DNA of 64,000 bases from an uncultured Bradyrhizobium sp. (GTDB taxonomy: Bacteria > Pseudomonadota > Alphaproteobacteria > Rhizobiales > Xanthobacteraceae). This document shows positions 43,062-63,819 of the stretch, one piece after another. The stretch spans positions 124,001 to 188,000 of the forward strand of contig NZ_CANSMR010000016.1 in assembly GCF_947648125.1 (NCBI RefSeq), written 5' to 3'. Made by a program: the position numbers and the translations under genes. The notes beneath the pieces are model-generated. The model was given only the letters and a program-made list of their open reading frames with translations. It was not told the DNA's origin and did not search any database. Position 1 is the first letter of the stretch. Each line of letters starts with the position of its first letter.

Positions 43062-45107
43062 TCAGGCGGCCTTGATGCTGCCGATGAAGCTTTCGACCTG
43101 GCTGCGCATGCGTTCCGACTGGCGCGACAGCTCTTCCGAAGCGCCGAGCACCTCGCCGGCGGCCGCCCCGGATTCCTCCGCCGCCCCGGTGACCGCACCG
43201 ATATTGGCCGAGATATCGCCGGTCCCTTTTGCAGCGTGCTGGACATTGCGCGCGATCTCCTGGGTCGCCGCGCCCTGCTGCTCGACGGCGCTGGCGATCG
43301 ACGAGGCGATCTCGTTGATTTCGTCGATCGTGACGGTCATGCCGCGGATCGCGGTCACGACGTCGCCTGACGTCGCCTGGATGGCGCCGATCTGCGTCCG
43401 GATATCATCGGTCGCCTTGGCGGTCTGTTCGGCAAGCGTCTTCACCTCGGCGGCGACCACGGCAAAGCCACGGCCCGCGTCGCCGGCGCGCGCCGCCTCG
43501 ATCGTGGCATTGAGCGCCAGCAAATTGGTCTGGCTCGCGATCTCGCTGATCAGCTTGACGACATCGCCGATCTTCTCCGCGGCGGCGGAGAGCCCCTGCA
43601 CCGTCTCATTGGTGCGCCGCCCGTCGGCCGCCGCCCGCTGCGCGATCTGCGCCGACTGCGTCACCTGACGTCCGATCTCGCCGACCGAGCCCGATAATTC
43701 CTCGGTCGCGGCGGCCACCGTCTGCATGTTGCTGGACGCCGCCCGCGTCGCTTCGGCGACATTCACAGCCTGTTCGCTGGTCTTGCCGGCGCTCTTCGTC
43801 ATCAGCGCGGCCGTCGCTTCGAGCTGTGCCGATGCCAATATCACGGCCTCGATGACCGCACCGATGTCGTCGTGGAACCGGTTGGTGAGGTCGCCGACGC
43901 GCGCGGCGCGGGCAGCGCGCTGGTTGACGGCCTCGCTATCCCTCGCAGCAAGCTCGGCCGAGCGGATCATGCTTTCCTTGAAGAATTGCACCGTCCGCGC
44001 CATCACGCCGATCTCGTCGCCGCGATCGGTGGCGCCCACCTCGAGACCGAGATGTCCCTCCGCCAGCCCGGTCATGTTCGAGACCAGCGTGTTGATCGGC
44101 ATCGTGATGCTGCGCGCCATCGCCAGCACCGCAAGCGTCCCCGCGAGCAGTGCCAACAGCATGATGCCGGCGACAACACCGAGACTCACGGTCGCCTCTG
44201 CCTTCTTGTCGGCCATCAGGCGCGACAATTCAGCGGCAAGGCCGTCCTCAACCGTCTTGAGCATGTCGATCCGGACAGTCGCGGCGTCGAACCAGGACTT
44301 GCTGTCGAGCGACTTGAAGTCACCGGCGAGCCCGCCCTGCTCCACCGTCTTGCGCATGGCGTTGAAGGTATCAATGGCGCCGCCCGACATCGTGCGGGCG
44401 AACAGCTCACGTGCCTCACGCGATGCTGCCGCGCGGAACGCGCTGAAGAAGCTCTCCTGGGCGGCCGCGAGGCCCACCGCGCGGACATAGAGCTGCGGGT
44501 CGAAGCGGCCCGCCGCGATGCCGCCGGCGACGGTCGCGCGCTCCTGCCCGGCGCGCTCCTTGCCCTCGATCAAATTGGCGTAGGCGGCAATGGATTTCGA
44601 AATCTCGTCGTCGCTGCTGAGCTTCGCGATGCCAGTGATGACCGTCATCAGCCGGCCGATCGTATCGGTGAGATAGCCGACGGCCGCCGGCGGCGTGACC
44701 GCAAGCCCATCGATGTCGGCGCGGCGCTGGTCGAGCTGACCGAGACCGTCCTGGGCAGCTTGCGCGACGGCGGCGAGTTCCGCGGTTCCCGACTGCTTCA
44801 GCTCCGCGAGCGCAGACATGGCGACCGACCGCTCGGCTTCGGTGCGCTTGCGCTGCTCGCTGAGCTCGGTTCGCATCTGCGCGCCCTTGCTGCCGAGATA
44901 GGCCGACGACAGTCCGCGCTCGCGCTGCAACTCATGCACCAGCCGGCTGAGCTTTCCGACACCCTCGGCAATCGGCTGCATGCGGGCGATGTCAGAGCGA
45001 ACCGACCATTTCGTCGAGATGTCGTAGATCGCCAGCGCCGCGAACGCGATCAGCGGCAGCAAGGCGGAAAAAGCAATGCGATAAAGTATCCTGGTGTTCT
45101 TCAACAT
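43062..45107 (-). CDS. Methyl-accepting chemotaxis protein with NIT sensor
   Basis: 681 residues. TM1 (about 9-28), a nitrate/nitrite-sensing NIT domain whose signature LVHELQRERGLSSAYLGS is at 56-73, TM2 (about 307-332), HAMP (about 333-385), and the MCP hairpin with tip segment IASQTNLLALNATIEAARAGDAGRGFAVVAAEVKTLAEQT (about 523-562). No CheR pentapeptide is at the C-terminus. It should report nitrate, nitrite or a related anion to the chemotaxis kinase at the inner membrane. The ligand call is by domain. Confidence 0.93.
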   Translation of the reverse strand: MLKNTRILYRIAFSALLPLIAFAALAIYDISTKWSVRSDIARMQPIAEGVGKLSRLVHELQRERGLSSAYLGSKGAQMRTELSEQRKRTEAERSVAMSALAELKQSGTAELAAVAQAAQDGLGQLDQRRADIDGLAVTPPAAVGYLTDTIGRLMTVITGIAKLSSDDEISKSIAAYANLIEGKERAGQERATVAGGIAAGRFDPQLYVRAVGLAAAQESFFSAFRAAASREARELFARTMSGGAIDTFNAMRKTVEQGGLAGDFKSLDSKSWFDAATVRIDMLKTVEDGLAAELSRLMADKKAEATVSLGVVAGIMLLALLAGTLAVLAMARSITMPINTLVSNMTGLAEGHLGLEVGATDRGDEIGVMARTVQFFKESMIRSAELAARDSEAVNQRAARAARVGDLTNRFHDDIGAVIEAVILASAQLEATAALMTKSAGKTSEQAVNVAEATRAASSNMQTVAAATEELSGSVGEIGRQVTQSAQIAQRAAADGRRTNETVQGLSAAAEKIGDVVKLISEIASQTNLLALNATIEAARAGDAGRGFAVVAAEVKTLAEQTAKATDDIRTQIGAIQATSGDVVTAIRGMTVTIDEINEIASSIASAVEQQGAATQEIARNVQHAAKGTGDISANIGAVTGAAEESGAAAGEVLGASEELSRQSERMRSQVESFIGSIKAA

Positions 45108-51554: not shown

Positions 51555-52307
51555 TCAACCCGCCGGCTTCTTCTGCGCGGCCTGCACCTGCTTCAGCATC
51601 TCCTTCACCGCGGTCATCGCTACGGCGAGCTTCTCCGGATCGCGCGAGCGCACCACCAGATTGGTGTTCGGCTTTTGGTTCTCGTCCTGGAACGGATAGC
51701 TGCCGATGATGGTGTCGGGATTGGCTTCCGCGATCGCCCGCAGCGGGCCGCCGATGTCGCCTTCCCTTGCGTCGGCGCGGACCGAATCCGACAGCATCCG
51801 CACGCCGGATTTCAGGGTCGGCGCTACGATGTCCATCATCGCCTGCATGATGGTGGGGATGCCGGCCATCACGATGACGTTGCCGAGCTTGAAGCCCGGC
51901 GCCAGGATGGTCGCGCTCTGGATCAGCTCGGCGCCGTCGGGCACCCGGGCCATCCGCAGCCGCGCCTCGTTGAGGTCCTGCTCGCTCCAGCGCTCCCTGA
52001 ACCGCGCCACCACGTCGGGATGATGGTGGATATCGACCCCGAACGCCTTCGCCACGCTGTCGGCGGTGATGTCGTCATGGGTCGGCCCGATACCGCCGGT
52101 GGTGAACACGTAATTGTATCTATGCCGCAACGCATCAAGGGCGGACACGATGTCGGCCTCGTCGTCGGCGACGACACGGACCTCCTTCAGGTCGATGCCG
52201 ATATTGGTCAGGTATTCGGCGATGAAGCCGATGTTCTTGTCCTTGGTCCGGCCGGACAGGATCTCGTCGCCGATCACCAATATCCCCGCCGTGACGATCT
52301 CGCTCAT
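51555..52307 (-). CDS. CinA-type molybdopterin-binding domain protein
   Basis: 250 residues. AGILVIGDEILSGRTKDKN and TTGGIGPTHDDITADSVAKAF are the MoCF_biosynth (CinA N-terminal) motifs. The C-terminal amidohydrolase half of full CinA is missing. It is in the same transcript as gpt. Confidence 0.93.
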   Translation of the reverse strand: MSEIVTAGILVIGDEILSGRTKDKNIGFIAEYLTNIGIDLKEVRVVADDEADIVSALDALRHRYNYVFTTGGIGPTHDDITADSVAKAFGVDIHHHPDVVARFRERWSEQDLNEARLRMARVPDGAELIQSATILAPGFKLGNVIVMAGIPTIMQAMMDIVAPTLKSGVRMLSDSVRADAREGDIGGPLRAIAEANPDTIIGSYPFQDENQKPNTNLVVRSRDPEKLAVAMTAVKEMLKQVQAAQKKPAG

Positions 52308-52534
52308 GGTCTCATTTCCTTAAAACTTGATCCCCTGACATTGCCGTTCCAATGCCTTGATGTCACGGGGTTTTGCCGCCGAATTAAGCAGACCTCAGCC
52401 GGTTTTTCGGGCAGGCCTTCCGCCTCCCCCTGGCAAATGCCGCAAGCCAATGCATATCGCGCTGGCCCGCCCCTTGCTACCATCCCATCAAGTCATGCAC
52501 TGTGTCACATGGCTTGGGAGGGCAGTCGGGATAT

Positions 52535-53953
52535 ATGGCAGTCGCGTTCGATGAGATGAACGGCCTCGGCGGGGATCTCCGCCCGGCCTACCAGGAGCTC
52601 TCCCGCTGGCTCAAAGAGACGCCGCCGGATGCGCTCGAATATCGACGCCAGGAAGCGGAGCTGCTGTTCCGCCGGATCGGCATCACCTTCGCGGTCTACG
52701 GGGATTCCGAGGCCCAGGAGCGGCTGATCCCCTTCGACGTCATCCCGCGCATCATGTCTGCGACCGAGTGGACGCGGCTGGAGAAGGGCCTGAAACAGCG
52801 CGTGCTCGCGCTCAACATGTTCCTCAAGGACATCTATCACGGCCGCGACATCCTGCGCGCCAACATCATCCCCGAAGACCTGATCTTCCAGAACCCGGTG
52901 TTCCGGCCGGAGATGAACGGCCAGGACGTGCCGCACGACATCTACGTCCACATCGCCGGCATCGACATCATCCGCACCGATCCGGACAACTTCATCGTGC
53001 TGGAGGACAATGCGCGCACGCCGTCCGGCGTCTCCTACATGCTGGAAAACCGCGAGATCATGATGCGGCTGTTTCCGGATCTGTTCGCGCGGCACCGCGT
53101 CGCGCCGGTCGAGCGCTATCCCGACGAGCTGTTGTCGGCGCTGCGATCGGTCGCGCCGCACAGCGCCTCCGCCGAGCCGACGGTCGCGCTGATGACACCT
53201 GGCGTCTACAACTCGGCCTATTACGAGCACTCGTTCCTGGCCGACAAGCTCGGCATCGAGCTGGTCGAGGGGCGCGACCTCATCGTCAAGAACGACGAGG
53301 TGTTCATGCGCACCACCGAGGGGCTGAAGCGGGTCGACGTCATCTACCGCCGCGTCGATGACGACTTCCTCGATCCCCTGACCTTCCGTCCGGATTCCGC
53401 GCTCGGCGTCCCCGGCCTGATGTCGGCCTACGCGGCCGGCAACATCACGCTCGCCAATGCCGTCGGTACCGGCATCGCCGATGACAAGGCGATCTATTCC
53501 TACATGCCCGACATCGTGAAGTTCTACCTCAGCGAGGAGCCGATCCTGAAGAACGTGCAGACCTGGCGCTGCCGCGAGGCGCAGGATCTGTCCTACGTGC
53601 TCGACAACCTCGCCGACCTCGTCGTCAAGGAGGTGCACGGCTCGGGCGGCTACGGCATGCTGATCGGTCCGGCCGCCACCAAGGCGACCATCGAGGCATT
53701 CCGCGACAAGCTCAAGCGCGAGCCGGAGGGCTTCATCGCCCAGCCGACGCTGGCGCTGTCGACCTGCCCGACCTGCACCGACAAGGGCCTCGCGCCGCGC
53801 CATGTCGACCTCCGCCCGTTCGTGCTGACCGGCTCGAGCCACACCACCATCGTGCCCGGCGGACTGACCCGCGTCGCGCTGAAGGAAGGCTCGCTCGTGG
53901 TCAATTCGAGCCAGGGCGGCGGCACCAAGGACACCTGGATACTGAGTGAGTAG
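52535..53953 (+). CDS. Circularly permuted type 2 ATP-grasp protein
   Basis: 472 residues from ATG 52535 (a start at 52502 adds eleven). It opens FDEMNGLGGDLRPAYQELSRWL, then FRRIGITFAVYGD, IPRIMSATEWTRLEKGLKQRVLALNMFLKDIYHGRDIL, VLEDNARTPSGVSYMLENREIMMRL, and KEVHGSGGYGMLIGP. These are the markers of the DUF404/DUF407 permuted ATP-grasp family, which ligate an acid to an amine (peptide-like bond). It is the first of a three-gene set of the Anbu type. Confidence 0.93.
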   Translation: MAVAFDEMNGLGGDLRPAYQELSRWLKETPPDALEYRRQEAELLFRRIGITFAVYGDSEAQERLIPFDVIPRIMSATEWTRLEKGLKQRVLALNMFLKDIYHGRDILRANIIPEDLIFQNPVFRPEMNGQDVPHDIYVHIAGIDIIRTDPDNFIVLEDNARTPSGVSYMLENREIMMRLFPDLFARHRVAPVERYPDELLSALRSVAPHSASAEPTVALMTPGVYNSAYYEHSFLADKLGIELVEGRDLIVKNDEVFMRTTEGLKRVDVIYRRVDDDFLDPLTFRPDSALGVPGLMSAYAAGNITLANAVGTGIADDKAIYSYMPDIVKFYLSEEPILKNVQTWRCREAQDLSYVLDNLADLVVKEVHGSGGYGMLIGPAATKATIEAFRDKLKREPEGFIAQPTLALSTCPTCTDKGLAPRHVDLRPFVLTGSSHTTIVPGGLTRVALKEGSLVVNSSQGGGTKDTWILSE

Positions 53954-53960
53954 TTGAAGC

Positions 53961-54905
53961 ATGCTGTCGCGCACCGCCGAAAACCTGTTCTGGCTGGCCC
54001 GTTATGTCGAACGCGCCGAGTATCTCGCGCGCACGATCGACGCCACGCTACGCGTCACCGCGCTGCCCGCGGCCTATGTCGGCAAGACCAATGAGTGGGA
54101 TTCCGCGCTGCTCACCGCCGGCGTAGGCGCTGCCTTCTACGACCATTACGAAGAAGCCAACGAGCGAAACGTCGTCGAGTATCTGTCCTTCGCGTCGGAA
54201 AATCCCTCCTCGATCAAGAACTGCATCGAAGCTGCGCGGCTCAATTCGCGTTCGGTGCGCACCGCGCTGACGTCGGAGATGTGGGACACCATCAACTCGG
54301 CGTGGATCGAGCTGCAGGCGGTCTGGAACAAGGGTCCCGCCAACCGCGAGGAGCTGGCCAAATTCCTGCGCTTCGTGCAGGAGACCTCGCTGCGCTTCGA
54401 CGGCTCGGCCTACCGCACCATGCTGCGCAACGACGCCTACTGGTTCTCGCGGCTCGGCGTGCATCTCGAGCGCGCCGACAACACCGCCCGCATTCTCGAC
54501 GTGAAGTATCACATGCTGCTGCCCGAGGAAGAGCACGTCGGCGGCCCGCTCGATTATTACCAGTGGACCTCGATCCTGCGTTCGGTGTCGGCGACGACCG
54601 CCTATCACTGGGTGTACCGGGAAACCCTGAAGCCCTGGCTGATCGCCGACCTCCTGATCCTCAACGACACGCTGCCGCGCTCGCTCGCCAGCTGCTACAG
54701 CAACCTGGTGCGCAATCTGGACCAGATCGGCGTCGCCTATGGCCGCCAGGGCGCCGCCCAGCGCCACGCCCGCGGCATCAGGAACCGGCTCGAGCACAGC
54801 CATATGGACGATATCTTTCAGCACGGCGTGCACGAATTCATCCAGGAGTTCATCGCGGACAATTCGCGGCTGGGTGAGATCGTCACCAAGCAGTATCTGA
54901 TCTGA
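53961..54905 (+). CDS. Alpha-E domain protein (DUF403)
   Basis: 314 residues. MLSRTAENLFWLARYVERAEYLART is the family start, WDTINSAWIELQAVW, SRLGVHLERADNTARILDVKYHML and NHLRIRHSHMDDIFQHGV-like ends follow. All-helical; found next to permuted ATP-grasp and transglutaminase genes in most cases. Role unproved, thought to assist the peptide-making step. Seven bases after the ATP-grasp stop. Confidence 0.92.
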   Translation: MLSRTAENLFWLARYVERAEYLARTIDATLRVTALPAAYVGKTNEWDSALLTAGVGAAFYDHYEEANERNVVEYLSFASENPSSIKNCIEAARLNSRSVRTALTSEMWDTINSAWIELQAVWNKGPANREELAKFLRFVQETSLRFDGSAYRTMLRNDAYWFSRLGVHLERADNTARILDVKYHMLLPEEEHVGGPLDYYQWTSILRSVSATTAYHWVYRETLKPWLIADLLILNDTLPRSLASCYSNLVRNLDQIGVAYGRQGAAQRHARGIRNRLEHSHMDDIFQHGVHEFIQEFIADNSRLGEIVTKQYLI

Positions 54906-54935
54906 CCGATACGGCCGGAAAGGTGCTCAAATTGT

Positions 54936-55030
54936 CGTCATGGCGGGCCTCACACCGGCCATCGATGTCTTGCTTTCGCGGCTGATTAGGAAGAAAGACG
55001 TGGATGCCCGGCACGAGGCCGGGCATGACG
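54936..55030. repeat. Intergenic inverted repeat between alpha-E and transglutaminase genes
   Basis: CGTCATGGCGGGCCTCACACC ... GGCACGAGGCCGGGCATGACG; arms of about 30 bases with several mismatches, and ATCGATGTCTT facing AAGACGTGGAT. It belongs to a Bradyrhizobium repeat group beginning GTCATGCCCGGCCTCG. It sits inside an otherwise tight gene set. Confidence 0.65.
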
Positions 55031-55069
55031 CTCCTGCCAAAAAAAAACCGACTGAACCCCGGTTGAGCC

Positions 55070-55912
55070 ATGCGCCTGCGGATAGCCCACACCACCACCT
55101 ATCGCTACGAGCCGGCGGCCTCGGGCGTGATCCAGATTCTGCGGATGACGCCGGGCAGCCATGACGGCCAGTATGTTGCCGACTGGCAGATCGACGTCTC
55201 GACCGATTCCCGGCTCGACATCCATGAGGACGCGTTCGGCAACGTCACCCATGTGCTGACGCATGGTTCGATCACCGACCTCACGATCCATTGCGAGGGC
55301 CTGGTCGAGACCCAGGACACCGGTGGCGTGCTGAAAGGCTCCGACGAGCGGTTTCCGCCGAGCCTCTTCTTGCGCCCCACGGCGCTGACCGACCTCAACC
55401 CGGCGATGACGAGTTTCGTGCGCGCGCTGCGCGCGGAAGCCGGCGCCGATGTGCTCGGCTTCCTGCACGCGCTGATGGTGCAGATCTACGAGCACATGAC
55501 CTTCGACGAGGACCCGACCAACAGCGCCACCTCGGCCTCCGAGGCGTTCGCGCTGAAGCGCGGGGTCTGCCAGGACTATGCACACATCCTGATCGCTTGC
55601 GCGCGCGCCGGCGGCGTTCCGGCGCGGTTCGTCTCCGGCCACTTCCTGCGCTCCGACGGCATGGTCAACCAGCAGGCCGGCCACGCTTGGGCCGAGGCCT
55701 TCGTGCCAGATTTGGGCTGGGTCGGCTTCGACGCCGCCAACGGGATCTGCACCACCGACGCCCATGCCCGCGTTGCGATCGGCCTCGACTACCTCGGCGC
55801 CGCCCCGGTCCGCGGCACCCGCTATGGCGGCGGCAATGAGACGCTGACGGTCGCGGTCAAGGTCGACCAGGCCGGCCGCCCCGGGCAGTGGCAGAGCCAG
55901 ACGCAGTCCTAG
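55070..55912 (+). CDS. Transglutaminase family protein
   Basis: 280 residues. RLRIAHTTTYRYEP is the N-terminal domain start. The catalytic Cys is in ALKRGVCQDYAHILIACAR, His in AGHAWAEAFVP, Asp in VGFDAANGICTTDAHARVAIG. Cytosolic, of the kind found with ATP-grasp and alpha-E genes; a protease or ligase acting on an unusual peptide is the usual proposal. It stands 164 bp after alpha-E because of the repeat. Confidence 0.93.
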   Translation: MRLRIAHTTTYRYEPAASGVIQILRMTPGSHDGQYVADWQIDVSTDSRLDIHEDAFGNVTHVLTHGSITDLTIHCEGLVETQDTGGVLKGSDERFPPSLFLRPTALTDLNPAMTSFVRALRAEAGADVLGFLHALMVQIYEHMTFDEDPTNSATSASEAFALKRGVCQDYAHILIACARAGGVPARFVSGHFLRSDGMVNQQAGHAWAEAFVPDLGWVGFDAANGICTTDAHARVAIGLDYLGAAPVRGTRYGGGNETLTVAVKVDQAGRPGQWQSQTQS

Positions 55913-55985
55913 CGGACACGACACCGCGCCCTCACGAGCCACCCGGTCGGCGCTATGCGCCGCCGATGACAGTCGAATGGTGGGG

Positions 55986-57086
55986 TCAGGGAATGCGCTC
56001 AAGGTCGGATTTGAGGACAACCAGGAAACGGGCCGCTTCGCCGCCCGTCACCACCCGATGGTCGAAGGTGAGCGATAGCGGCAGCGTGCGTCTGACTGCA
56101 ACCTGCCCCTGATGCGCGACCGCGCGCTCCGAAATCCGCCCGGCGCCGACGATTGCCGTCTGCGGCGGCACGATGATGAGATTGGCAAACCGGCCTCCGA
56201 TCATTCCGAAGTTCGATAGCGTGATCGTCGCACCGCGCAGCTCTTCCGGGGGTATCGCGCGCGCGATTGCGTCGGCCCGCAGGCGGTCGAGCCCAGCCCG
56301 CAGGTCCGATACGCTCCGCTCCGCGACGTTGCGCAGCACGGGAACGATCAGGCCGCCGCCGGTGTCGACAGCAATGCCGAGATCGATCCGCTCGATCAGA
56401 CGCCGCTCTTCCGAGCCGGAATGATACCAGGCATTGAGCGCGGGCTCTGATTTGCATGCGGCGGCAATCGCACGCACCAAACGGATTGTCACGTCCTCGC
56501 CCTGTCGCCAGTCGTTGATGTCGGCTTCATCGGTGACAGTCGCAGGGACGATTTCCGCATGCGCCGCCGTGATGCGCTGCGCCATCGCGCGGCGCAGGCC
56601 GCGCAGCGGCTCAGCTGGGCCGCCGTGAGACATCTGCTTCGCCGCCCTCTCGACATCGGCCCGCGTAATGGTACCGCCGGGCCCCGTCGCCTCGACGAGA
56701 TCGAGGGCGACGCCGAGCCTGCGCGCGAGCACGCGCACCGCCGGAAACACCTGAGCTCCGTGCGCGTTGGGCGCCGCCGAAGGAGTTGCCGCCGCCGGCT
56801 TTTGCTCGTCGATGCCGAGCTCGCCCACAATCGTCCCGGTGTCCTGCCTGGCGCCTTCGGCAAACTCCACGAGCGGCGCGCCCACCTTCACGATATCGCC
56901 TTTGGCACCGAACAGGCGCGCGATACGTCCGCTCGACGGCGCCGGTATCTCAACCACCGCCTTGTCGGTCTCGACCGAAACGAGCGGCTGGTCGGTCACG
57001 ACATGGTCGCCCTCGTTGACATACCAGGTGACGATCTCCGCTTCTTCAAGACCTTCACCAAGGTCCGGCAACGTGAACTGGCGCAT
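55986..57086 (-). CDS. Dihydrolipoamide acyltransferase (E2)
   Basis: 366 residues. Lipoyl domain with the lipoylated lysine in VETDKAVVEIP, E3-binding domain VRVLARRLGVALDLVEATGPGG, and catalytic domain with SLTFDHRVVTGGEAARFL. The usual form is HRxxDG; here Thr replaces the Asp. Carries acyl groups between E1 and CoA. The E1 beta start lies upstream on the same strand, 20 bp before this start. Confidence 0.93.
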   Translation of the reverse strand: MRQFTLPDLGEGLEEAEIVTWYVNEGDHVVTDQPLVSVETDKAVVEIPAPSSGRIARLFGAKGDIVKVGAPLVEFAEGARQDTGTIVGELGIDEQKPAAATPSAAPNAHGAQVFPAVRVLARRLGVALDLVEATGPGGTITRADVERAAKQMSHGGPAEPLRGLRRAMAQRITAAHAEIVPATVTDEADINDWRQGEDVTIRLVRAIAAACKSEPALNAWYHSGSEERRLIERIDLGIAVDTGGGLIVPVLRNVAERSVSDLRAGLDRLRADAIARAIPPEELRGATITLSNFGMIGGRFANLIIVPPQTAIVGAGRISERAVAHQGQVAVRRTLPLSLTFDHRVVTGGEAARFLVVLKSDLERIP

Positions 57087-57106
57087 GGGACGAGGTCCGT
57101 CGGTGT

Positions 57107-58087
57107 TCAGTTGTACTGGTACGCCTTTCGAGCTGCGGCCACGATGCGTCCGACCGACGGCATGTAGTGTTGCTCAAGGCGTGCCATCGGGACGACCGTG
57201 TCGTAGCCGGTGACGCGGGTCACGGGCGCGAGCAGCGAGGATAGCCCGCGCTCGGCGATCAGGGCTGCGATCTCCGCGCCAAATCCGCCGGTGTGCGCCG
57301 CCTCATGCACGATGACACAGCGTCCGGTCTTTGCGACCGAACCGAGCACGGTATCTTCATCATAGGGCTTGAGCGTGGCGAGGTCGACGACCTCGGCAGC
57401 GATGCCTTCATCGGCGAGCGCATCAGCCGCGGCCATCGTTTCCCTCAGCATCGCGCCCCAGCTGATCAGCGTGACGTCGCGACCTTCCCTCAGGATAAAG
57501 GCAGCATCCAGCGGCAACGCTTCGCCGTTGTCCTCCACCTCGCCTTTCGCCGCGCGGTACAGCCGCGTCGGCTCAAGAAACACCACCGGATCGGGATCGC
57601 GGATCGCGGCAAGGAGAAGTCCATAAGCGCGCTCCGGCGACGAGGGCATGACGACACGCAAGCCTGGAATGTGGGCGAGCATCGCCTCGGTACTTTCGGA
57701 ATGATGCTCGGGCGCGCGAATGCCGGCACCATGCGGCGTGCGCAGAACCATCGGACAGGTGAGCCGTCCCTGGGTACGGTTGCGCATGCGCGATGCATGG
57801 TTCACCAGCTGATCGAGACAGGGATAAATGAATCCCATGAACTGGATTTCGCCGACGGGCTTCAGTCCCTGCGCGGCCATGCCGACGCAGAGCCCGCTGA
57901 TCAGGAGTTCGGCAAGCGGCGTATCAAGGACGCGCTCCGGACCGAAGCGCTCCTGCAAGCCAACGGTGGCGCGGAAGACGCCGCCATTAACGCCGACATC
58001 TTCGCCGAGCACAACCACATCAGGATCATCCGCCATCGCGCGGCCGAGCGCCAGATTGATGGCTTCGACCAACGTGACTTCAGGCAT
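57107..58087 (-). CDS. 2-oxoacid dehydrogenase E1 beta subunit
   Basis: 326 residues from ATG 58087. VTLVEAINLALGRAMADDPDVVVLGEDVG and MPSSPERAYGLLLAAIRDPDPVVFLEPTRLYR are typical, with the transketolase C-terminal part VIVHEAAHTGGFGAEIAALIAE. Works with the E1 alpha subunit to decarboxylate a 2-oxoacid using thiamine diphosphate. Start and the E1 alpha stop overlap by eight bases. Confidence 0.94.
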   Translation of the reverse strand: MPEVTLVEAINLALGRAMADDPDVVVLGEDVGVNGGVFRATVGLQERFGPERVLDTPLAELLISGLCVGMAAQGLKPVGEIQFMGFIYPCLDQLVNHASRMRNRTQGRLTCPMVLRTPHGAGIRAPEHHSESTEAMLAHIPGLRVVMPSSPERAYGLLLAAIRDPDPVVFLEPTRLYRAAKGEVEDNGEALPLDAAFILREGRDVTLISWGAMLRETMAAADALADEGIAAEVVDLATLKPYDEDTVLGSVAKTGRCVIVHEAAHTGGFGAEIAALIAERGLSSLLAPVTRVTGYDTVVPMARLEQHYMPSVGRIVAAARKAYQYN

Positions 58088-59177
58088 CGTCCTCTCCTGC
58101 GAGTTCGCGACGTTGCGCCGCATAGGCCTCAGGAAGATCGGCATAGAGGTTGTCGAACATGGTTTCAGGCCGGCGCGGCGGCGTCGTCAGATAGCGCTGC
58201 ACCGCCGCCTCGATGCGCTGATGGCACTCGGCGGCAAGCTGCTCCTCGTCCGCCTTGGTCCACATCTTCTGACCCACAAGATGAGACCTGAGGCGCGCGA
58301 TCGGCTCCTCCTTCCAATGCGCCTGGACTTCTTCGGCCGAACGGTAGCGCAATGCATCATCTGACGTCGTGTGATCGCCGAGCCGGTAGGTGACCGCTTC
58401 GATGAAGTGAGGCCCCTTGCCGTCGCGGGCAGCGGCAATGGCCCCCTCGGCCGCGGCGCGCATCGCCACCACGTCACACCCGTCCACTTGCTCGCCGCTG
58501 AACCCGGCAGCTATCGCCTTCTGGGCCAGCGTTTCGGAAGCGGTCTGCAGCCGCAACGGCACCGATATGGCCCATTGATTGTTGGTGGCGACGAACACGA
58601 CCGGCAATTTGTGCACGCCGGCAAAATTCATCGCCTCGTAGACATCGCCTTTCGAGGTCGCGCCGTCGCCAAACAGGCATACGGCGACACGCGGCTCCCT
58701 GCGCAGCTTGAAGGCATAGGCCACACCGGCGGCATGCGGCGCCTGTGATCCGACCGGAACGCAGAACGGGAAATCGTGGACAGAACCGGAGAATTGATTG
58801 CCCCGTTCATCGCCGCCCCAAAACAGCAGGATCTCCTCCAGCTTGACGCCGCGCCAGAGCAACGCGCCATTGTCGCGATAGGAAGGCAGCAAAACGTCAT
58901 CTTCCCGCATCGCACTCGCGATACCGACCGACACCGCCTCCTGGCCGAGCGAAATGGCATAGGTTCCCAGCCGACCAGTGCGCTGCAATGCAACAGCCTT
59001 TCGGTCAAAGAGGCGCAACAACACCATCGACCGGTAAAGTTCGATAAGCATCTTGGCATCGGCGGCGAAGGCGGGAAGCGGCCGGCTCGTCGAACCATCC
59101 GGCGCGAGGTAGCTGCGGCGGCGTACCTCAAAGCGCGCAATGACGGGGAGCTCTTCGCTTGCTCTCTTGCTGGCCAC
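58080..59177 (-). CDS. 2-oxoacid dehydrogenase E1 alpha subunit
   Basis: 365 residues from GTG 59177 (GGAGCGAG just upstream); a much longer frame to 59561 is open but has no E1-like sequence. TPP motif GDGATSKGDVYEAMNFAGVHKLPVVFVATNNQWAIS, SLGQEAVSVGIASAMREDDVLLPSYRDNGALL. Pyruvate or branched-chain type cannot be told apart. No E3 gene is in the window. Confidence 0.93.
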   Translation of the reverse strand: MASKRASEELPVIARFEVRRRSYLAPDGSTSRPLPAFAADAKMLIELYRSMVLLRLFDRKAVALQRTGRLGTYAISLGQEAVSVGIASAMREDDVLLPSYRDNGALLWRGVKLEEILLFWGGDERGNQFSGSVHDFPFCVPVGSQAPHAAGVAYAFKLRREPRVAVCLFGDGATSKGDVYEAMNFAGVHKLPVVFVATNNQWAISVPLRLQTASETLAQKAIAAGFSGEQVDGCDVVAMRAAAEGAIAAARDGKGPHFIEAVTYRLGDHTTSDDALRYRSAEEVQAHWKEEPIARLRSHLVGQKMWTKADEEQLAAECHQRIEAAVQRYLTTPPRRPETMFDNLYADLPEAYAAQRRELAGEDDA

Positions 59178-59348
59178 GCTCTCGCTCCTGGAGCGGTTCT
59201 GCGTCCCACGTTCTGCTATTTGGTGTTCGAGCCGCGACGATGCAATACTGGGGCAGTTTTGCATTTGGCGCCTGCGTCGGCGGCCGGATCGCTGGGATCG
59301 ATCGACGAGATCCGTGGAAACAGCACCGCGATAGCGGTATAAGAGAAC

Positions 59349-59567
59349 ATGGCAAATGGTCAGGTTGTCCTCGTAACAACTGAGCCGTTGGACGGCGGTC
59401 CGCCTGTTCGCTCGGTCTTCTTCGTGGCTGAAGGAGATGCGGCAAAGGCCACGGCAATTGTTGCGAAAATGATGGCCCCGAATGAAAGGGTCGACGCGTG
59501 GGGGCTGCTTCCCGAAGCGGCCGTCAAAGCGCTCGGATTGAAACCGGGTGATTACACCCACACCTGA
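59349..59567 (+). CDS. Small hypothetical protein
   Basis: 72 residues from ATG 59349 with AAGAGAA just upstream. VVLVTTEPLDGGPPVRSVFFVAEGDAAKATAIVAKMM and DAWGLLPEAAVKALGLKPGDY look like a compact alpha/beta domain. Divergent from the E1 alpha gene (171 bp between starts). No known family. Confidence 0.55.
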   Translation: MANGQVVLVTTEPLDGGPPVRSVFFVAEGDAAKATAIVAKMMAPNERVDAWGLLPEAAVKALGLKPGDYTHT

Positions 59568-59945
59568 CTTGCGCCGGATGGAAGTGCGGCGCGCGAAGGC
59601 TTTCTGCGGCCCTTACCCCTTGCGACGAGCGTGCGACCTCGACGCAGCGCCTCCCTCAGGCCAACTTTGGGTGATCGCCGAGCCTTGCCACCGCGTTTGC
59701 GATCACAACGCGGGGAGCCCTCTTTCTCCAGCAAACGACATGGCGTAATCTCTACCGAACTGCCCTTTGAGACGGGACGGGCCGACGTCGCCGTCTGATG
59801 GAACAGGCAGTGGTCAGGCCGTCGGCAGGCATCGCAGTCTGAAAGCAGCGCCTGCCTTATGGGGCGCTCCCTCAACTTCAACATGAAGCACGTTGGCCTG
59901 CCGCGCGCGGCAGACAAGGGCAGTGCGTAACCCTTGGAGGACGAC
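59568..59945 (+). other. 378-bp gap without a supported gene
   Basis: The stretch contains several short runs of overlapping frames on both strands but no consistent coding bias and no family match. The end (59930-59945, TAACCCTTGGAGGACGAC) holds the ribosome site of the next gene. Confidence 0.4.
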
Positions 59946-60239
59946 ATGGCGACATTCATAGTGAGGATCGACTGGACCGACCAGGGAATTCGTAATGTCA
60001 AGGAAGCGCCCAAGCGCAGCCGAGCGGCGAAAGAACTCGCCAAGACGCTCGGTGTCGAAATCAAGGAGGTCTATCTCACCTCCGGTGAGCATGACATCCT
60101 TCTCCTCGCCGAAGCGCCTCTCGGTGACAACATCACAAAGCTCGCGCTTGCCCTCAGTTCTCAGGGAAACATACGGACCTGCACGTCACGGGCCTGGCCC
60201 GAGTCCGAGTGGACCAAGCTGATATCCGAGCTTCCGTAG
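59946..60239 (+). CDS. GYD domain protein
   Basis: 97 residues from ATG 59946, preceded by CTTGGAGGACGAC. ATFIVRIDWTDQGIRNVKEAPKR and EVYLTSGEHDILLLAEAPLGDNITKLALALSSQGNIRTCTSRAW match the GYD family, a small ferredoxin-like fold with an unknown job. It may have been inserted with the dehydrogenase genes. Confidence 0.88.
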   Translation: MATFIVRIDWTDQGIRNVKEAPKRSRAAKELAKTLGVEIKEVYLTSGEHDILLLAEAPLGDNITKLALALSSQGNIRTCTSRAWPESEWTKLISELP

Positions 60240-60375
60240 CGGCTTCGGATGTCCGGTGGATTTCTGCGCGGCCTGACCGCTACCGTCGCTATTCTGACAC
60301 CCGGCGATCGGCGCGAGCACTCCGCGTGAGCGCAGGGTGACGACACACGTCGCCGCCCGCGGGGGGCAGCACGCA

Positions 60376-61986
60376 CTATTTATCCAGCCAGACGTCCTCG
60401 AAACGCAGATTGTTGTACTGGCTGTTGTCGTGCGGACGAAAGTTCTTCACGTAGGGCTGCCAGCAATTGCCGGCCGATGAGTGCAGGATGACCGGCCGTG
60501 CAGCGTCGTCGACCAGCAGGCGCTCGATGTCGAACACGATTGTTCGGCGCTTGTCCTTGTCGACCTCGCGCGACTGCGCGGCGAGCAGCCTGTCGACCTC
60601 GGCATTGCAATACTGGGTGTAGTTGCGCTCCGAGTTGCAGGAATAGTTCTCGACCAGATTGCCGTCGGGATCGTCGACGCTGACGCCGGTGACATTGAGG
60701 CCGATCGTGTAATCCTTGCGTTGCAGCCGCGAGTACCAGCGCGGCGTATCCAGGATATCGAGCTCGGCGACGATATAGATCTTCTTGAGCTGGTCGGCGA
60801 GGATCACCGCCGGGTCGCGATAGGTCGGCAAATTGCGGGTCTGGATCTTGATCGACAGCGGCCTGGCGTCGCTGTAGCCGAGCTTCTGCATGATCGCCTG
60901 CGCGTCCGCGAGATTCTTCCCGGTATCGGAGCCGTAGCCCATCAGCGTCGACAGGATCTCCGGCGGCATGCCCCACTCGCCTTCCGGCTTGGCCTGCATC
61001 GCGCCGCCGAGCCGCCCGGTGCCTTCGAACAGGATGCTGTTGAAGGCCTGGCGATCCAGCGCCAGCGACATCGCCTTGCGGATCTCCGGATTGTCGAACG
61101 GCGGATTGACGCGGTTGACCAGCAGATTGATCTGCAGATTGGTCGAGGTCATCTCGCAGATCGCATTCGGCGCCCGCGCCTTGACGTCCTTCATCAGGGG
61201 AATGCTGACGTCGGACGGAAAGGTGATGTCATAGTCGCCGGTCGCGAATGCTAGCATGCGCGTGGCGCGGCTGTCGATCGAGCGCACCGTGATCTCGTCG
61301 AGATACGGCCGATCCTTCTTGAAGTAGTCGGGGTTGCGGACCAGACGGATCGAATCCCCGCGCCTGAACTCCACGAACTTGAACGGCCCGGTGCCGATTG
61401 GCTTGGTGCGCATTACCTGCTGCGGCACGTGGCAGGGATAGACCACCGAGAAGGCGCTCGCGAGCAGCGCCAGCAGGCCGGGTTGCGGTTCGGTCAGCTC
61501 GAAGGTCGCTTCATCGTCGCCATTGACGCTGACGTCCCTGAGCTTCGAATACCAGACCTTGCGCGGATTGCGCTTGAAGTCCTGGGTTTTGGAGTCTTGG
61601 GTCTCGCTCTTGCCGATCAGCATCCGCCAGGTGCATTGCACGTCCTTGGCCGTGAACGGCTGGCCGTCATGCCATTTCACGCCGTGATGCAGCTTGAAGG
61701 TGAGCTTCGTGTTGGTGGAATCCCACGACCAGCTCTCGGCGAGGTCGGGGATCACGGTGTCGATGCTTTCGTGCACCTTGGCCGGATCGAACACCACGAG
61801 GTTGTTGAAGACCGCCGCGAACGGCATCACCGAGGCGATGGTGGATTCCTCGAGCAGCGAGGTCGAGGGCGGATTGTCGTTGTGATAGAGCCGCAGCGTG
61901 CCGCCCTTCTTCTGGGCCGATGCAGGGCTCGCAGCCATCGCCGCGATACCCAATGCCATGATGCACGTGGCCAGTTTGAAAGACAT
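60376..61986 (-). CDS. Peptide/substrate-binding protein of an ABC importer (second)
   Basis: 536 residues from ATG 61986, with a signal peptide (hydrophobic 4-20, cleavage after ASA-QKK). Segments LKLHHGVKWHDGQPFTAKDV-like, VIPDLAESWSWD and IGTGPFKFVEFRRGDSIRLVRNPDYFK place it in SBP_bac_5. No permease or ATPase gene is adjacent, so it must work with genes elsewhere. Confidence 0.93.
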   Translation of the reverse strand: MSFKLATCIMALGIAAMAASPASAQKKGGTLRLYHNDNPPSTSLLEESTIASVMPFAAVFNNLVVFDPAKVHESIDTVIPDLAESWSWDSTNTKLTFKLHHGVKWHDGQPFTAKDVQCTWRMLIGKSETQDSKTQDFKRNPRKVWYSKLRDVSVNGDDEATFELTEPQPGLLALLASAFSVVYPCHVPQQVMRTKPIGTGPFKFVEFRRGDSIRLVRNPDYFKKDRPYLDEITVRSIDSRATRMLAFATGDYDITFPSDVSIPLMKDVKARAPNAICEMTSTNLQINLLVNRVNPPFDNPEIRKAMSLALDRQAFNSILFEGTGRLGGAMQAKPEGEWGMPPEILSTLMGYGSDTGKNLADAQAIMQKLGYSDARPLSIKIQTRNLPTYRDPAVILADQLKKIYIVAELDILDTPRWYSRLQRKDYTIGLNVTGVSVDDPDGNLVENYSCNSERNYTQYCNAEVDRLLAAQSREVDKDKRRTIVFDIERLLVDDAARPVILHSSAGNCWQPYVKNFRPHDNSQYNNLRFEDVWLDK

Positions 61987-62283
61987 TCTCGCCTCCCGGA
62001 ATTCTTGTTGTTCTTGTCGATTGCAGGCAGTCGACCACAACGCCAGGTGCCTCGCAATGACAGGGGCGCAGATCATTGCCGGTTGCGCGCAACGCAGACC
62101 GAGGTCGGGGCAAGCACGGGATTCGCAGGCGGCCAGCGGTGGAACAGGGCCTCACACGGACCGCCGCCGGCCCCCTCTTGACCGGCCATCGCATGTCCCG
62201 TCACGGGGAATTAGGGTTGGATGCGACCTCGAAATTGGCTACACGTTTGGCGCCGAGAAACTCGGACCGTTTGAGGGCTGGAA

Positions 62284-63045
62284 ATGACCTATTGCTGCGG
62301 AATTCTGGTGCGCGACGGCCTCGTCATGATCGCTGATACCCGCACCAATGCCGGCCTCGACAACGTCTCGACCTTCCGCAAGCTGCACATCTTCGAAAAG
62401 CCCGGCGACCGCATCATGGCGATCGCCAGCGCCGGCAATCTCGCGATCAGCCAGTCCGTGCTGTCGACCCTGACCGAGGGCATGGAAGATCCGCACACCG
62501 GCGAGCTCGAGACGCTGATGAACGCGCCGACCATGTTCCAGGCGGCGCAGCGGATCGGCCGCGCCATCCGGTCGGTGCACGCCACCGAGGGCGATGCGCT
62601 GCGTTCCGAAGATATCTCCTTCGACGTCTCGTTCCTGTTCGGCGGCCAGATCAAGGGCTCGCGGATGCGCCTGTTCATGGTCTACACAGCCGGCAACTTC
62701 ATCGAATGCACCACCGACACGCCCTATTTGCAGATCGGCGAGCACAAATACGGCAAGCCGGTGCTCGACCGCGCCATGCATTACGACGTCGAACTCTATG
62801 AGGCACTCAAAACGGGGCTGATCTCGATGGATTCGACGATGCGCTCCAACCTCGGCGTCGGCCTGCCGATCGACGTCCTGGTGGTGCGCACCGACGCCTG
62901 CGTGGCCGACCTCAATCACCGGATCGAGGCCGGCGAGCCCTATTTCCACGATTTGCGCTCGCGCTGGTCGGCGGCGCTGCGCGCGGCGCACCAGAACATT
63001 CCACGCCCACCCTACAAGAACGAAACCGAAGCAAAAACCAAGTAA
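62284..63045 (+). CDS. Anbu: proteasome-like peptidase (HslV relative)
   Basis: 253 residues. The N-terminus MTYCCGILVRDGLVMIADTRTNAG keeps the Ntn-hydrolase layout: Thr2 (exposed as nucleophile when Met is removed), Asp18 and Lys33 (FRKLH), the trio of proteasome subunits. The rest (FEKPGDRIMAIASAGNLAIS, GELETLMNAPTMFQAAQRIGRAIR) matches the Anbu family, the ancestral beta subunit. Anbu is normally found with ATP-grasp, alpha-E and transglutaminase genes; those lie at 52535-55912. It precedes the SDR gene by 12 bp. Confidence 0.92.
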   Translation: MTYCCGILVRDGLVMIADTRTNAGLDNVSTFRKLHIFEKPGDRIMAIASAGNLAISQSVLSTLTEGMEDPHTGELETLMNAPTMFQAAQRIGRAIRSVHATEGDALRSEDISFDVSFLFGGQIKGSRMRLFMVYTAGNFIECTTDTPYLQIGEHKYGKPVLDRAMHYDVELYEALKTGLISMDSTMRSNLGVGLPIDVLVVRTDACVADLNHRIEAGEPYFHDLRSRWSAALRAAHQNIPRPPYKNETEAKTK

Positions 63046-63057
63046 GAGGAAACTCGG

Positions 63058-63819
63058 ATGACCGAAGCAACCAGCAAGATCGCACTCGTCACCGGCGCCG
63101 GCACCGGTGTCGGACGCGCGGCATCGCTCGCTTTGATGGACAAGGGCTACACCGTGGTGCTCGTCGGGCGCCGCCTGGAGATGCTGGAAGAGACCAGCAA
63201 GCTCGGTCCCGCCGGCAAGAGCCTGTGCGTCACCGCCGACATGGCCAATCCGGCCGCGATCGCCGCGCTGTTCGACAAGGTGAAGGCGACCTACGGCCGG
63301 CTCGACGTTCTCTTCAACAATGCCGGCATGGGCGCGCCGCCGGTAAATTTCGAGGATCTGCCACTCGAGCAGTGGCAGGCCGTGGTCAACACCAACCTCA
63401 CCGCGCCGTTCCTGTGCACCCAGCACGCCTTCCGCATCATGAAGGACCAGACGCCGCGCGGCGGCCGCATCATCAACAACGGCTCGATCTCGGCGCATGC
63501 GCCGCGGCCGTTCTCGGCCGCCTACACCTCGACCAAGCACGCCATCACCGGCCTCACCAAGGCCTCCAACCTCGACGGCCGCATGTATGACATCGCGGTC
63601 GGCCAGGTCGATATCGGCAATGCCGCGACCCCGATGACCGACCGCATGGTCAACGGCCCCGGCGTGCTGCAGCCCGACGGCACCACCAAGCACGAACCGC
63701 GCATGGATGCGAAAGCGGTCGGCGACGCCGTCGCTTACATGGCCGGCCTGCCACTCGACGCCAACGTGCTGTTCATGACGGTCATGGCGACCAAGATGCC
63801 GTTCGTGGGCCGGGGCTAA
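63058..63819 (+). CDS. Short-chain dehydrogenase/reductase
   Basis: 253 residues. [31 protein letters not shown] binds the dinucleotide, NNAGMG follows, and the active Tyr-Lys is in AAYTSTKHA with a preceding Ser in NGSIS. It reduces or oxidises a carbonyl with NAD(P). Its ribosome site (AAGAGGAAA) lies 12 bp behind the Anbu stop, so it belongs to the same message. Confidence 0.93.

Follow-up and report, generated by a model that had tools for sequence, protein, structure and literature searches.

Two putative transcription units with a cargo-tolerant boundary at the Anbu locus of Bradyrhizobium

We analyzed the Anbu locus in a DNA stretch of 64,000 nucleotides from an uncultured Bradyrhizobium sp. 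(assembly GCF_947648125.1, contig NZ_CANSMR010000016.1, positions 124,001 to 188,000; hereafter the window), where genes for an ATP-grasp ligase, an Alpha-E protein and a transglutaminase-like protein (the trio) are separated from the Anbu peptidase gene by a block of other genes (cargo). Sequence comparison suggests that the locus probably consists of two transcription units, side by side by descent, with a boundary that tolerates cargo. The first unit would be the trio behind a sigma54-type promoter and a likely activator site, probably turned on by nitrogen limitation. The second would be Anbu, joined in this genus by a short-chain dehydrogenase/reductase (SDR) gene, behind a conserved element of its own that does not resemble a sigma54 site. 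The stretch from the transglutaminase gene to Anbu would be the boundary, and insertions would be tolerated there because it separates transcription units, so that cargo may enter and leave with little penalty; Anbu would be independent of the trio promoter and able to outlast the trio. The two proposed units and their upstream sites are as follows (positions of the window).

52373..52390, plus strand: candidate site for an NtrC-like activator, a TTGC-N11-GCA dyad lying 90 bp ahead of the sigma54 site
52463..52478, plus strand: predicted sigma54-type -24/-12 promoter of the trio, TGGCCCGCCCCTTGCT, 11 of 12 consensus positions
52535..53953, plus strand: circularly permuted ATP-grasp ligase (CP_ATPgrasp_2, PF14403, E 7e-167)
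53961..54905, plus strand: Alpha-E protein (PF04168, E 9e-91)
55070..55912, plus strand: transglutaminase-like protein (PF01841, E 1e-20 for transglutaminase, and PF08379)
62206..62283, plus strand: Anbu upstream element, core GGGTTGGA...GAAATTGGCTA at 62214-62241
62284..63045, plus strand: Anbu, proteasome-type Ntn-hydrolase (PF00227, 27.1 bits against a cut-off of 22.4, E 4e-06)
63058..63819, plus strand: SDR oxidoreductase (adh_short, PF00106)

Open reading frames and Pfam assignments confirmed the gene order and coordinates given by the original prediction, which had been made from the sequence of the window. The order ATP-grasp, Alpha-E, transglutaminase, Anbu and the common strand are those of the canonical Anbu operon, and its contiguity is lost, with 6,371 bp containing opposite-strand genes between the transglutaminase gene and Anbu. 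The distance is 73 bp from the transglutaminase gene to the first cargo gene and 12 bp from Anbu to the SDR gene. The Anbu protein belongs to the proteasome beta-like family, with an N-terminal Thr and conserved Asp17 and Lys32/33, and the residues T1, D17 and K32 are kept in all 158 Anbu sequences examined.

Comparisons within the genus were based on 80 fetched Bradyrhizobium-group loci, the best (most similar) 80 of 564, which make 81 with the window; the 81-locus counts therefore sample the more distant parts of the genus too thinly. A few of the 80 records carry other names (L054, L063, L074). L063, titled Frankia sp. RB7, has a locus that falls within the Bradyrhizobium tree, and its record is probably mislabelled or contaminated. 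For wider comparison we chose 80 loci from other genera of the family and from other families.

The sigma54 consensus used was TGGCACG-N4-TTGCW-like, with GG at -24 and GC at -12, and the form ahead of the ATP-grasp gene in the window is TGGCCCG-N4-TTGCT. Sites scoring at least 10 of 12 consensus positions within 250 bp upstream were counted, with dinucleotide shuffles as the null. All 69 loci tested (the 81 minus those lacking the gene or enough upstream DNA; shuffle null 1.5%) have such a site ahead of the ATP-grasp gene, and none was found before Anbu (0/81), transglutaminase (0/74), Alpha-E (0/71) or SDR (0/81; shuffles 0.6-1.5%). Outside the genus, the site was present before ATP-grasp in 37/70 loci (null 1.8%) and before Anbu in 2/77 (null 1.4%). 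The idea that Anbu regained a sigma54 promoter after the split was rejected, because the count is zero in the genus and about the shuffle rate elsewhere; one of the two sites before Anbu, in genome G342, is explained by loss of the trio behind its old promoter. The TTGC-N11-GCA dyad, which we take to resemble the frame of an NtrC site, lies at -89 to -91 in 67 of 68 Bradyrhizobium-group loci (shuffle frequency 3.1%), and elsewhere it recurs in 11/37 loci, eight of them at the distance seen in the genus. From these upstream motifs, the trio would be sigma54-dependent and may be under an activator.

Immediately before Anbu, 30 columns within 75 bp are conserved at 90% or more, and none of the next 56 columns upstream is. 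The motif GAAATT[GC]GCTA stands before Anbu in 74/81 loci, split and unsplit alike. In the cargo-free loci L007 and L012, homology with the window resumes at 62206, the start of the element, and the shortest gap between transglutaminase and Anbu (86 bp) is about the length of the element. We therefore regard the element as Anbu's own conserved upstream sequence and, tentatively, as a promoter that is not sigma54-like. A regulon defined by the element was rejected, as the exact pattern occurs just once in the window's own genome. The original prediction held that, if Anbu is still coregulated with the trio, the system had been broken by an insertion and then functionally rejoined. The junction changes repeatedly in the genus, contrary to a single recent break, and since the element is found in split and unsplit loci, no such rejoining is needed on the present evidence.

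Variation is concentrated at the junction between the transglutaminase gene and Anbu. In 76 Bradyrhizobium-group loci (75 fetched and the window), this gap ranges from 86 to 9,839 bp and exceeds 1 kb in 33 (it measures 664 bp in L029, a strain of B. diazoefficiens), while the ATP-grasp to Alpha-E spacer is at most 227 bp (n=71) and the Alpha-E to transglutaminase spacer at most 212 bp (n=74). A tree was built from 71 loci; the remaining ten of the 81 (including L013), whose stretches lack the upstream genes, were left off. On this tree, the state of a gap of at least 1 kb changes at least nine times and presence of the carboxymuconolactone gene 14 times; these counts do not distinguish gain from loss, and the tree was quickly built, with 32 of its 68 inner branches starred and 17 open. 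The cargo at the junction varies by clade.

Carboxymuconolactone-decarboxylase-family protein: 34 of 71 tree loci
Solute-binding protein: 15 of 71 tree loci
Acyl-CoA dehydrogenase: 9 of 71 tree loci
2-oxoacid dehydrogenase complex: 4 of 71 tree loci
PepSY protein with an apparent TonB receptor (judged by eye)
FAD oxidoreductase with glyoxalase

In the window, the cargo and the left edge of the locus are made up of the following genes.

51555..52307, minus strand: MoCF_biosynth gene, divergent from the trio; left edge of the locus, likewise in two genomes without the trio (below)
55986..57086, minus strand: 2-oxoacid dehydrogenase E2 (PF00198)
57107..58144, minus strand: E1 beta (PF02779, PF02780)
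58080..59561, minus strand: E1 alpha (PF00676; TIGR03181 above cut-off); the true start may be further in
59946..60239, plus strand: GYD-domain protein (PF08734, 77.5 bits)
60376..61986, minus strand: family-5 solute-binding protein (SBP_bac_5, PF00496); 61986 is a more likely start than 62076

Of the two small proteins that the original prediction placed in the block, one is thus the GYD-domain protein; the open reading frame at 59552-60064 had no match in Pfam or NCBIfam. The absence of a transposase and of obvious ends was upheld: no integrase or transposase is among the Pfam matches of the scanned proteins, and of the repeats listed between 55800 and 62350 (15 direct, 13 inverted; copies of at least 14 bases), none connects both ends of the block. 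For lack of all three features, the block was rejected as a mobile element or genomic island. Outside the locus, a selenocysteine tRNA is predicted at 44272-44350.

A single operon broken by a recent insertion in the window strain, with Anbu later regaining co-regulation, is an alternative that finds a basis in the usual arrangement of the pair. Among genomes of the order that were at least 90% complete (199 genomes; Anbu at E 1e-20, ATP-grasp at 1e-100), 107 of the 132 that have Anbu carry it on the same strand as ATP-grasp and no more than 2.6 kb from it, which agrees with the prediction that these genes are usually adjacent. In the remaining 25, from several families, the pair is wider-spaced, inverted, far apart or on separate contigs (G219 and G272, with two Anbu places each, entered the spacing count with one, and 150 of 153 ATP-grasp genomes were used). 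Within the genus, the pair is on one contig in 109 genomes, always on the same strand, and on different contigs in five more, and the distance from ATP-grasp end to Anbu start is 1.9 to 17.5 kb (G111 entered with one of its three copies, and G089 and G070 with a single fragment each). As predicted, the block does not belong to the usual gene order, and relatives differ in both spacing and content.

The relatives also bear on the age of the block, which is a composite of the solute-binding protein gene and a dehydrogenase/GYD block. The three nearest loci by tree path are L003 and L002, which have the solute-binding gene and no dehydrogenase block, as a recent insertion would suggest, and L004, which has both. 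Both are also at the junction in L005, L006 and the off-tree L013. L009 and L011 retain 40-43 bp of E2 (window 56319-56361; 100% and 95% identical), fused directly to window 59687, which looks like a deletion scar. With the dehydrogenase block in four fetched relatives and a likely scar in two more, the block predates the window strain, and one recent insertion was rejected; L002, L003 and L008 may have lost the block or may never have had it. The solute-binding gene has probably resided at the junction for longer, because it occurs in 15/71 tree loci versus 4/71 for the dehydrogenase complex. Of 117 genomes of the genus, 33 carry relatives of E1 alpha (E 1e-100), five at this locus and 28 elsewhere (by contig and position). 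At three of the five other chromosomal places fetched (L171, L172, L175), the dehydrogenase complex has a GYD gene, 36-40% identical, in its vicinity. Together with the Anbu element in unsplit relatives and the lack of a sigma54 site before Anbu, these results largely refute the recency of the insertion, and we consider the broken-operon explanation improbable.

Anbu and the trio nevertheless occur together. In the order, 132/199 genomes have Anbu and 153/199 have ATP-grasp; all 132 also have ATP-grasp, and 21 have ATP-grasp without Anbu. In the genus, Anbu is present in 114/117 and ATP-grasp in 115/117 genomes; both are missing in G115 (99% complete) and G097 (75%), and ATP-grasp is alone in G101 (67% complete). 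G115 is a 5.0-Mb genome. G111 carries both Anbu and ATP-grasp in triplicate, the copies lying on different contigs and scoring equally. In the family (100 genomes at least 90% complete, tallied by hand), where ATP-grasp served to mark the trio, both are found in 85 genomes, Anbu only in two (G342, G399), ATP-grasp only in two (G328, and G373 with a partial match in a genome 90% complete) and neither in 11, in line with the predicted link between trio and Anbu. G313, where the sole relative is 32% identical, was counted as without. A second ATP-grasp relative, also 32% identical, lies in the window's own genome inside an 868-residue open frame (G000:C9:190654-192021), and similar ones recur across many of the family's 100 genomes. 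Judging from this co-occurrence, Anbu probably still works with the trio products, and we infer a biochemical link between them.

The two Anbu-only genomes (99% complete each), in which no match for ATP-grasp, Alpha-E or transglutaminase was found, qualify the order survey, where such genomes numbered zero. Anbu is intact in both, with T1, D17 and K32 readable in G399, and adjoins the MoCF gene that elsewhere flanks the trio. In G342, the sigma54-like box persists 106 bp before Anbu. In G399, there is no sigma54-like site above score 6 in 700 bp, and a promoter-like element, GTTGCCCC...GCGTAAAAATG, stands beside Anbu like that of its congeners. Relaxed selection on Anbu after the split was not seen by dN/dS, which is 0.03-0.08 when the window is compared with three unsplit loci and 0.08-0.11 for two pairs of unsplit loci. 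For the trio-less G399 against two congeners, the values are 0.16-0.20, slightly higher than the 0.07-0.15 of three trio-bearing congener pairs, although the pairs are few.

The partner of Anbu in this genus might be the SDR rather than the trio, as the original prediction had proposed in the event that co-regulation was lost. The Anbu-SDR spacer (estimated from tblastn ends) is 7-45 bp in all 81 Bradyrhizobium-group loci, and the pair persists after loss of the trio in G399; to this extent the association held. It does not extend further, since the 36 fetched Anbu loci that come from other families gave no SDR match (tblastn 1e-12), which means that the SDR is not a general Anbu partner, and in G342 no SDR was seen in the 18 kb of fetched sequence that surround Anbu. 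Given also that ATP-grasp and Anbu covary across genus, order and family, it is very unlikely that the SDR replaces the trio as partner. Nor did a general partner emerge beside split Anbu copies outside the genus, where the flanking open reading frames of 16 loci differed by eye.

In comparing the two proposed units with known systems, for which excerpts of the cited papers served as the source, we take DUF404/DUF407 to be the ATP-grasp family and DUF403 to be Alpha-E. In the excerpts on the Anbu operon of Yersinia bercovieri (PMC6376114; also PMC5666114), the same four families occur in the same order and orientation as in the window, and the catalytic residues of Anbu are conserved here too; unlike that operon, the window has 6.4 kb of cargo before Anbu and a separate Anbu element, and in Bradyrhizobium an SDR gene is fixed behind Anbu. 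A dodecameric open-ring assembly is reported for other Anbu proteins. In Burkholderia cenocepacia, BCAM1233-1236 comprise DUF404/DUF407, DUF403 and transglutaminase-like genes and are NtrC- and sigma54-dependent (PMC5491218); the cluster additionally encodes a second large transglutaminase-like protein, the excerpted passages do not name an Anbu gene, and the control shown there is predicted from sequence in the window. Predicted sigma54 regulons also include the Anbu orthologous group (PMC12316311, excerpt). Sigma54 control of trio-type genes is thus already known and not new. For PP_2685-2688 of P. putida, the excerpt (PMC7801951) speaks of an operon that includes a transglutaminase and a 20S-beta-like gene, a single operon there and split in the window; PP_2687 and PP_2688, termed hypothetical, would be trio members. 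In wild-type RNA-seq under nitrogen limitation, the trio genes were induced 12.6-, 11.0- and 14.7-fold, against 1.12-fold for Anbu (PP_2685) (same excerpt). A literature search found neither sigma54 restricted to the trio nor an Anbu upstream element in Bradyrhizobium, and nothing on Anbu in Bradyrhizobium as judged by titles and abstract openings. For Bradyrhizobium, we infer the nitrogen signal and transcription from either upstream site.

Several observations weigh against two separate units. As a sigma70 promoter, the Anbu element is significant in just 2 of 81 Bradyrhizobium loci; its sigma70 identity was dropped on this ground. Sigma70-like promoters before Anbu are significant in 22/41 loci of other genera of the family (2/35 before each of two internal genes, 5/34 before ATP-grasp) and in 10/36 of other families (12/36 before ATP-grasp). 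The sigma54 and dyad motifs were noticed by eye or in alignments before testing, the loci share descent so that motif counts are not independent, and the P-II loci of the window's own genome have no sigma54 site scoring at least 10, so that the motif is uncalibrated on a known target. Outside Bradyrhizobium the trio itself is also disrupted, as L148, L152 and L156 (other genera of the family) have 3.5-3.8 kb between Alpha-E and transglutaminase, and L104 (another family) has transglutaminase and Anbu on the strand opposite ATP-grasp and Alpha-E. In species with short gaps, Anbu may also be reached by read-through from the trio. In the P. putida excerpt (PMC7801951), the trio is still induced 14-20-fold in an rpoN mutant, Anbu rises 4.8-fold in a relA/spoT mutant, and reports are cited of all four genes, or Anbu, rising under nitrogen limitation.

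The mixed Pseudomonas data on Anbu, like the missing sigma70 significance and a cargo that seems metabolically unrelated and clade-variable, would also fit neutral drift at a permissive intergenic spot, with the element as leftover conservation that has no bearing on transcription units. However, drift leaves unexplained why the remaining spacers of the locus never exceed 227 bp, why the 75 bp beside Anbu are conserved far above the DNA just upstream, and why an equivalent element outlasts the loss of the trio in G399. We regard neutral drift as doubtful and prefer two adjacent transcription units.

To our knowledge, no substrate of Anbu has been proven, and what it does has been guessed from the operon to which it belongs. 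From their sequences, the trio and Anbu look separately regulated and strongly covary, yet they are naturally separated as Anbu without the trio. It is conceivable, though we propose it only tentatively, that Anbu is constitutively available and separable from a nitrogen-starvation trio, with a second role that retains it after trio loss (G342, G399); the trio product would then be made only in nitrogen limitation, and Anbu would have its own promoter and, in this genus, the SDR. If the trio and Anbu are separate units, their co-expression should not be assumed, and lineages keeping Anbu without the trio would be natural tests of Anbu alone. Split and unsplit species within one genus offer a ready comparison for RNA-seq under nitrogen limitation.

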